Positions 4,394 to 4,682 of a DNA stretch of 64,000 nucleotides are shown here, in pieces. Source of the stretch: Comamonadaceae bacterium. GTDB lineage: Bacteria > Pseudomonadota > Gammaproteobacteria > Burkholderiales > Burkholderiaceae_C. The translations under genes were made by a program, and so were the position numbers. The stretch's first letter is position 1. The number at the start of each line of letters is the position of its first letter. A model generated the notes under the pieces. That model saw nothing but the letters and a program-made list of their open reading frames with translations. It had not been told where the DNA came from and ran no database searches. Location: contig CANJNC010000003.1 in assembly GCA_947475685.1 (NCBI GenBank), positions 47,975 to 111,974 of the forward strand, written 5' to 3'.

Positions 4394-4506
4394 GATGCAA
4401 TTTCAAGCCATTCGGCCCAAAAAGCATGGCCCGTTAAAGACGCGATTGTTGCTTTGAAGAGAGGGATAAAGCGGTCCTTTTCATTTTTTGTGATATATTT
4501 CAAGCC

Positions 4507-4575
4507 ATGAACAGTACATTCTTTCGATTTGGATACTTTTTCTTCTCATGCCCATCCGGCGGTCGAGAGATTTAA
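4507..4575 (+). CDS. Phe-rich leader peptide of aroG
   Basis: This 22-codon ORF is too short for the track. It begins MNST and contains FFRFGYFFF, that is six Phe and one Tyr within nine codons, then ends at TAA. A terminator hairpin follows 31 bp later, and then the DAHP synthase gene. This is the architecture of leader peptides that control amino-acid operons by attenuation: scarcity of Phe-tRNA stalls the ribosome in the Phe run. No good Shine-Dalgarno is visible before it, which is a weakness. The call is an inference from composition and layout. Confidence 0.72.
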   Translation: MNSTFFRFGYFFFSCPSGGREI

Positions 4576-4613
4576 GCGTATTTCAAACGTTCGAAGCTTT
4601 CAAACAAACCGCC
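4558..4613 (+). promoter_or_regulatory. Candidate antiterminator pairing of the aroG attenuator
   Basis: GGCGGT at 4558-4563, inside the last leader codons, is an exact complement of ACCGCC at 4608-4613, which is the 5' arm of the terminator. A ribosome stalled on the Phe codons (up to 4545) would leave GGCGGT free to pair and block the terminator. A ribosome reaching the stop codon at 4573-4575 would cover it and let the terminator form. The pairing is only six base pairs, so it is plausible but unproven. Confidence 0.45.
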
Positions 4614-4632
4614 TTCAGGGGCGGTTTTTTTT
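4607..4632 (+). terminator. Rho-independent terminator (attenuator) before aroG
   Basis: The arms AACCGCC and GGCGGTT are perfectly complementary around a six-base loop and are followed by a run of eight T residues. It lies between the leader peptide and the aroG start, about 50 bp before the ATG, so it would end transcription prematurely rather than terminate tldD alone. Confidence 0.85.
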
Positions 4633-4682
4633 CGTTCCATGGGCACATTCGAAACGCTAAGTAAGCGATCAAGAGGCACAAG

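Follow-up and report, generated by a model that had tools for sequence, protein, structure and literature searches.

A Predicted Leaderless Leader Peptide and Transcription Attenuator of the DAHP Synthase Gene aroG in a Comamonadaceae Bacterium and Its Relatives

The only DAHP synthase gene found in the genome of a Comamonadaceae bacterium, aroG, is preceded in the window (the whole analysed stretch of 64,000 nucleotides) by what is, with high confidence, a ribosome-mediated transcription attenuator adjusting this gene to the supply of charged aromatic tRNA. Judged from sequence, the switch very probably turns the pathway down when the aromatic amino acids are plentiful. A sequence-only reading had proposed such an attenuator for DAHP synthase; its finding is right and bigger than was stated, as the element is family-wide, and the conserved open reading frame (ORF) and helices support it, with a response to Phe predicted from them. 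A broader formulation, which could equally well hold or fail, is that of an undescribed RNA element, near-universal in the family and present in other orders, in which the supply of two aromatic amino acids, Phe and Tyr, and often of a third, Trp, is read jointly by one leaderless leader peptide that thereby controls, by attenuation, the enzyme at the entry to the shikimate pathway.

Leader Region of aroG

The arrangement described in the sequence-only reading, namely a 22-codon ORF with six Phe and one Tyr in nine codons, a terminator about 31 bp downstream and the aroG start about 50 bp farther, was recovered in all its parts (Table 1): the stop codon of the leader and the terminator stem are separated by a spacer of 30 nt, and the ATG of aroG lies 50 nt past the T tract. 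The hexamer GGCGGT in the last leader codons, for which an exact complement in the 5' arm of the terminator had been claimed, indeed matches ACCGCC at 4608-4613 base by base. The AroG protein matched the profiles TIGR00034 (aroFGH) at 525 bits and PF00793 at 308 bits; neither a second class I DAHP synthase nor a class II enzyme (PF01474) was found in the genome of 3.77 Mb, and the aroG of the window is the only DAHP synthase found there. Just 3' of the upstream tldD-like gene, at 4459-4482, there is a weaker hairpin followed by ATTTTTTG, which is possibly the terminator of that gene.

Table 1. Features of the aroG leader region (positions of the window)
Feature	Start	End	Strand	Basis
Extended -10 promoter element TGTGATATATT, hexamer TATATT at 4494-4499	4489	4499	+	
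Leader peptide ORF, 22 codons, MNSTFFRFGYFFFSCPSGGREI and stop	4507	4575	+	Translation; aromatic-rich ORF kept in relatives
Control codons 5-13, F F R F G Y F F F (six Phe, one Tyr)	4519	4545	+	
1:2 protector hairpin, overlapping the last Phe codon	4543	4569	+	Folding; swap test
Region 2, 5' strand of the antiterminator, GGCGGT, in the last leader codons	4558	4563	+	
2:3 antiterminator	4558	4613	+	Folding; swap test
3:4 intrinsic terminator, stem 4606-4614/4619-4627, T tract 4625-4632	4606	4632	+	Folding; swap test
aroG, class I DAHP synthase, 375 aa	4683	5810	+	Protein profiles; homologues

Competing Helices and Their Conservation

Mutually exclusive 1:2, 2:3 and 3:4 helices make up the classical design of the trp and phe attenuators. 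In the aroG leader, the sequence-only reading contained the 2:3 and 3:4 helices, and the third, 1:2, was added here; the 1:2 and 2:3 helices exclude each other, as do 2:3 and 3:4. The protector pairs UUCUC (4543-4547) with GAGAG (4565-4569) and UGCC (4549-4552) with GGCG (4558-4561), and its predicted energy of -8.5 kcal/mol in the fold of 4540-4575 is not unusual, being equalled in 31 of 200 shuffles. The antiterminator is closed by GGCGGU/ACCGCC and contains inner stems, for example GAGAG (4565-4569) with CUUUC (4597-4601); its energy of -17.9 kcal/mol, computed on 4546-4616 with the 5' arm of the 1:2 hairpin largely excluded, was reached by 3 of 200 shuffles. The terminator, AAACCGCCT-TCAG-GGGCGGTTT with eight T, has eight Watson-Crick pairs and one U.G pair and a predicted energy of -12.6 kcal/mol, and none of 200 shuffles was as stable. 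The region combines a short leader ORF in which codons for an amino acid made by the controlled pathway abound, an intrinsic terminator between this ORF and the structural gene, an antiterminator competing with the terminator through the strand that a ribosome at the stop codon would cover, and a protector hairpin overlapping the control codons. A median of 7 nt (12 nt in the window) separates the last aromatic codon from the antiterminator strand, whose end lies a median of 12.5 nt before the stop codon, so that a ribosome on the aromatic codons would leave this strand free and a ribosome at the stop codon would cover at least a part of it.

In the relatives from Burkholderiales, the Phe codons, the terminator and the pairing between 4558-4563 and 4608-4613 are kept, with the compensating changes by which the attenuator was to be judged. 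Malikia and Macromonas carry GAC in region 2 and GTC in region 3, versus GGC/GCC in the others; two loci (L074 and L076) combine GGGGCGGCU in region 2 with AGCCGCCCC in region 3, by which the antiterminator is perfect and the terminator has a G.U pair; and GCU/AGC forms the inner protector pair in L083, L093 and L100. Conservation was assessed by a register-free swap test, where each strand was paired with its own partner versus partners from other sequences. Taking the loci as independent, with relatedness uncorrected, the permuted partners were as good as the own ones in 3 of 2000 permutations for 1:2 and in none of 2000 for 2:3 and 3:4. With 144 loci, the own partners of 2:3 and 3:4 beat all 5000 permutations, and the result holds separately in the 90 family-type loci and the 54 loci of other families. 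Run on the family alignment, RNAalifold returned the terminator only, with no double changes, and missed 1:2 and 2:3, since the core bases are nearly invariant. In an alignment of 50 sequences, there is no change in the leader ATG or at most positions of the terminator core. The column-by-column pair counts gave modest to weak covariation because the helices slip in register. The argument for 1:2 and 2:3 therefore depends on the swap tests, uncorrected for kinship.

A variant of the protector was seen in the leaders of Aquabacterium type (L044-L046, L050, L052, L053 and L057-L061), which carry a Shine-Dalgarno-like AGGAG in the last codons (GGCGCAGGAGTGG) where the others have CGAGAG. The AGGAG is explained by pairing with CUCC in region 1; a role in pausing is possible.

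Distribution among Genomes

By a protein search, 70 named relatives were collected, including Limnohabitans, Curvibacter, Hylemonella, Malikia, Ramlibacter, Aquabacterium and Rhizobacter, and nearly all their aroG upstream regions have a leader and a terminator at a similar place, with such leaders as MSSRIAFYFFYFWFSVPGGREASA, MKATRFYFAYFWFSSVTDGRES and MKSVRFYFSFFHFQHPTGAGVADA. No leader was found in two far outliers among them (L068 and L069), and one sequence (L067) ends before the leader position. A covariance model built from the 50 aligned sequences (R1) was then searched, without gene reference, in 399 genomes of the order and matched 95 of them (E<=0.01, the E-values of both models being rough); 68 of the 70 matches examined lie directly before an AroG homologue of 56 to 100% identity, and the two exceptions (L166 and L167), being weak, partial and terminator-only, were discarded.

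With a second model built from 72 order-wide loci (R2), the element was detected in 195 of 201 genomes of the family, or in 177 of the 180 good genomes and 137 of the 141 genera. At E<=0.001, the same model matched 111 of the 392 good genomes of the order and gave no match in the other 281, where the leader is absent or diverged; in the class, 8 of 369 genomes were matched. Four of the five matches outside the order, in other orders of the same class (L171-L174), stand before aroG, e.g., MNAARASFYFWYYFPKPLAEEGLRSP, with a leaderless-type start as well. The weak class-level match L175 and a weak second match, L185, are not before aroG and were discarded.

Promoter and Start of the Leader mRNA

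The hexamer TANNNT ends 5-9 nt upstream of the leader ATG, most often 7 nt, in 96% of the 90 family-type loci and in 53% of the 55 others, against 0-6% at control offsets, although the value for the other families may be inflated, since the models by which these loci were found, R1 and R2, both include the -10 element. In the whole genome under study, the motif TGTGNTANATT-N5-8-ATG occurs once, at this leader. A consensus scan for sigma-70 promoters, which requires a -35 box, for this reason returned none, and the extended -10 element came from the alignment instead. As the -10 box lies about 7 bases before the ATG, the leader mRNA is expected to start at the ATG, with the transcription start predicted at about 4506-4507, and is probably leaderless by this spacing.

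Leu-rich leaders with the same spacing also occur. On contig C11 of the same genome, before leuA (L187:1312-1437), a Leu-rich leader MNKLLSLLLLRFNGRS with its stop codon (1327-1377) is preceded by TAAACT seven bases before the ATG and followed by a terminator (GCCCGT...ACGGGC and a T tract) and then by leuA, and it represents a probable second leaderless attenuator of this genome. Second R2 matches in three genomes of the family (L182, L183 and L184, at about 1501-1650, L182 and L184 on the minus strand) also stand before leuA; the leaders there are rich in Leu, an example being MNISLTSSLLLLLPQQRAAVFAHL, and have TGTGCTATATT at seven bases from the ATG, so that the aroG model cross-detects leuA leaders.

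Proposed Mechanism and Alternative Explanations

From the ORF, helices and spacing documented above in the sequences, together with their conservation and association with aroG, we infer that the leader is translated, that the ribosome stalls in it and that aromatic amino acids govern the outcome. Transcription would begin at or next to the leader ATG, and the leaderless 5' end would be the loading site for the ribosome. With Phe- and Tyr-tRNA in ample supply, the ribosome would reach the stop codon and cover region 2, leaving regions 3 and 4 to pair; the terminator so formed would release a leader RNA of about 125 nt. Under a shortage of charged aromatic tRNA, the ribosome would stall in codons 5-13 and cover region 1, the 1:2 hairpin would be blocked, GGCGGT and ACCGCC would pair, and the RNA polymerase would continue into aroG. 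If no translation takes place, 1:2 and 3:4 would form and lead to termination.

The released leader RNA or peptide might act in trans besides its action in cis, similarly to rnTrpL/peTrpL of S. meliloti, whose trpL layout is matched by the probably leaderless ORF and the predicted terminated short RNA (PMC7298713), but with a peptide tail varying across families such an additional role is unlikely.

The amino acids to which the attenuator would respond can be judged from the codons. In 145 leaders, which were chosen by aromatic content at a fixed place before aroG and mostly at a fixed distance from the -10 box, at least two Phe are present in all, Tyr in 132, Trp in 67 and all three in 64, with residue shares of 20.5% for Phe, 8% for Tyr and 2.3% for Trp. 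The window leader has Phe and Tyr without Trp, but across the relatives the leaders are not confined to Phe, and the best description is an aromatic sensor, Phe first. At five aligned aromatic columns of 82 distinct leaders, an aromatic residue is kept in 80 to 100%, with TTT/TTC and TAC/TAT interchanging. The tail behaves differently: in most relatives the stretch GGCGGTCGAGAG encodes GGRE, in L031 and L054 it encodes AVER, and the counterparts of this stretch give AAQR (L074 and L078), DGRE (Malikia) and TGAGV (Aquabacterium type). This reading in different frames implies that the RNA, not the peptide, is kept there. Synonymous exchange in front and frame changes behind point to selection on the aromatic codons in front and on pairing behind. 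The high conservation of GGRE among close relatives would suit a leader working through its peptide, by nascent-chain arrest or as a small protein with this ending, instead of through control codons; yet the same RNA is translated in so many ways, frame included, and the N-terminal sequence varies where the aromatic codons and RNA pairing are kept, that this explanation is very improbable, and a peptide function of the GGRE tail was rejected because its reading frame changes between relatives.

Hardly more can be said for a metabolite- or tRNA-binding riboswitch, a T-box or a protein-binding terminator switch with an incidental ORF, which has a comparably slight probability: terminator/antiterminator switches of this size are known in riboswitches too, but neither the window nor 20 relatives yielded an Rfam 15 match at the respective cut-off (RF01859, Phe_leader, scored 19.3 bits against a gathering cut-off of 55), no conserved aptamer-like core was seen outside the ORF, helices and promoter, and the stretch between the leader stop codon and the terminator is weakly conserved. 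Finally, that the hairpin is a mere terminator of the tldD-like gene, 3' of whose stop codon it sits, and the Phe-rich ORF a chance frame is scarcely credible: although about 1.1 short aromatic-rich ORFs are expected by chance per 64 kb strand (Markov simulation) and the leader is the only one on the plus strand of the window, the locus is raised above chance by the ORF, promoter spacing and all three helices, which are kept upstream of aroG through most of the family and a large part of the order and in genomes of other orders, with aromatic codons varying synonymously.

Significance and Comparison with Known Systems

The ribosome-mediated attenuator proposed here offers a specific and testable control of carbon entry into aromatic amino acid synthesis for a large bacterial group, in the form of a conserved RNA element without an entry in Rfam 15. 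Its leaders show how the control codons around one enzyme (Phe and Tyr, or Phe, Tyr and Trp) differ between lineages. The constant distance between the -10 box and the ATG suggests that leaderless translation is used here for attenuation, a layout documented for an alphaproteobacterium and Streptomyces (PMC7298713, PMC8079986). Short leader ORFs like that of aroG may easily be missed in annotation, and work on aroG expression for aromatic products should, we suggest, allow for the leader element.

This leader is apparently an undescribed instance of ribosome-mediated attenuation, itself well known. No report of it in betaproteobacteria was met in the open-licence literature of PubMed Central, though two older comparative studies cited in PMC1262725, Panina 2001 and Vitreschak 2004, may hold an earlier mention. 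The novelty supposed in the sequence-only reading accordingly stands for this group in the searched literature and does not extend to other bacteria, since attenuation before DAHP synthase genes has been proposed in Acholeplasma, Vibrio, Shewanella and E. coli. In Acholeplasma, the leader uORFC-13-1 before aroF, reported for 24 sequences carrying one or more Phe codons, is likewise predicted to sense Phe and has a terminator ahead of a DAHP synthase gene, but it belongs to another phylum and has an RBS, and the likeness is one of description, implying no sequence relation (PMC8632094). Putative attenuators are indicated upstream of aroAI-tyrA in Vibrio (PMC1173090) and proposed upstream of aroF in Shewanella and E. 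coli (PMC2659441), where a DAHP synthase gene is also under suspected attenuation; these are Tyr-related aroF-tyrA operons of gammaproteobacteria, and the available excerpts of both papers describe no leader peptide of the present type.

In the start of the mRNA, the closest counterparts are trpL (rnTrpL) of S. meliloti, whose transcript begins at the leader start codon (PMC7298713), and the leaderless trpL, leuL and ilvL of Streptomyces (PMC8079986). They share with the aroG leader the control codons and the terminator, and the mRNA start at the leader start codon, mapped in them, is predicted for aroG; they serve other amino acids and genes in other classes or phyla. In architecture, the aroG leader resembles pheL-pheA and pheM-pheST of Enterobacteria (RF01859), with a Phe-rich leader ORF, the 1:2, 2:3 and 3:4 helices and a terminator before the structural gene; unlike them, it has DAHP synthase as its target instead of prephenate dehydratase or PheRS, carries Tyr and often Trp codons too, and probably has a leaderless start.
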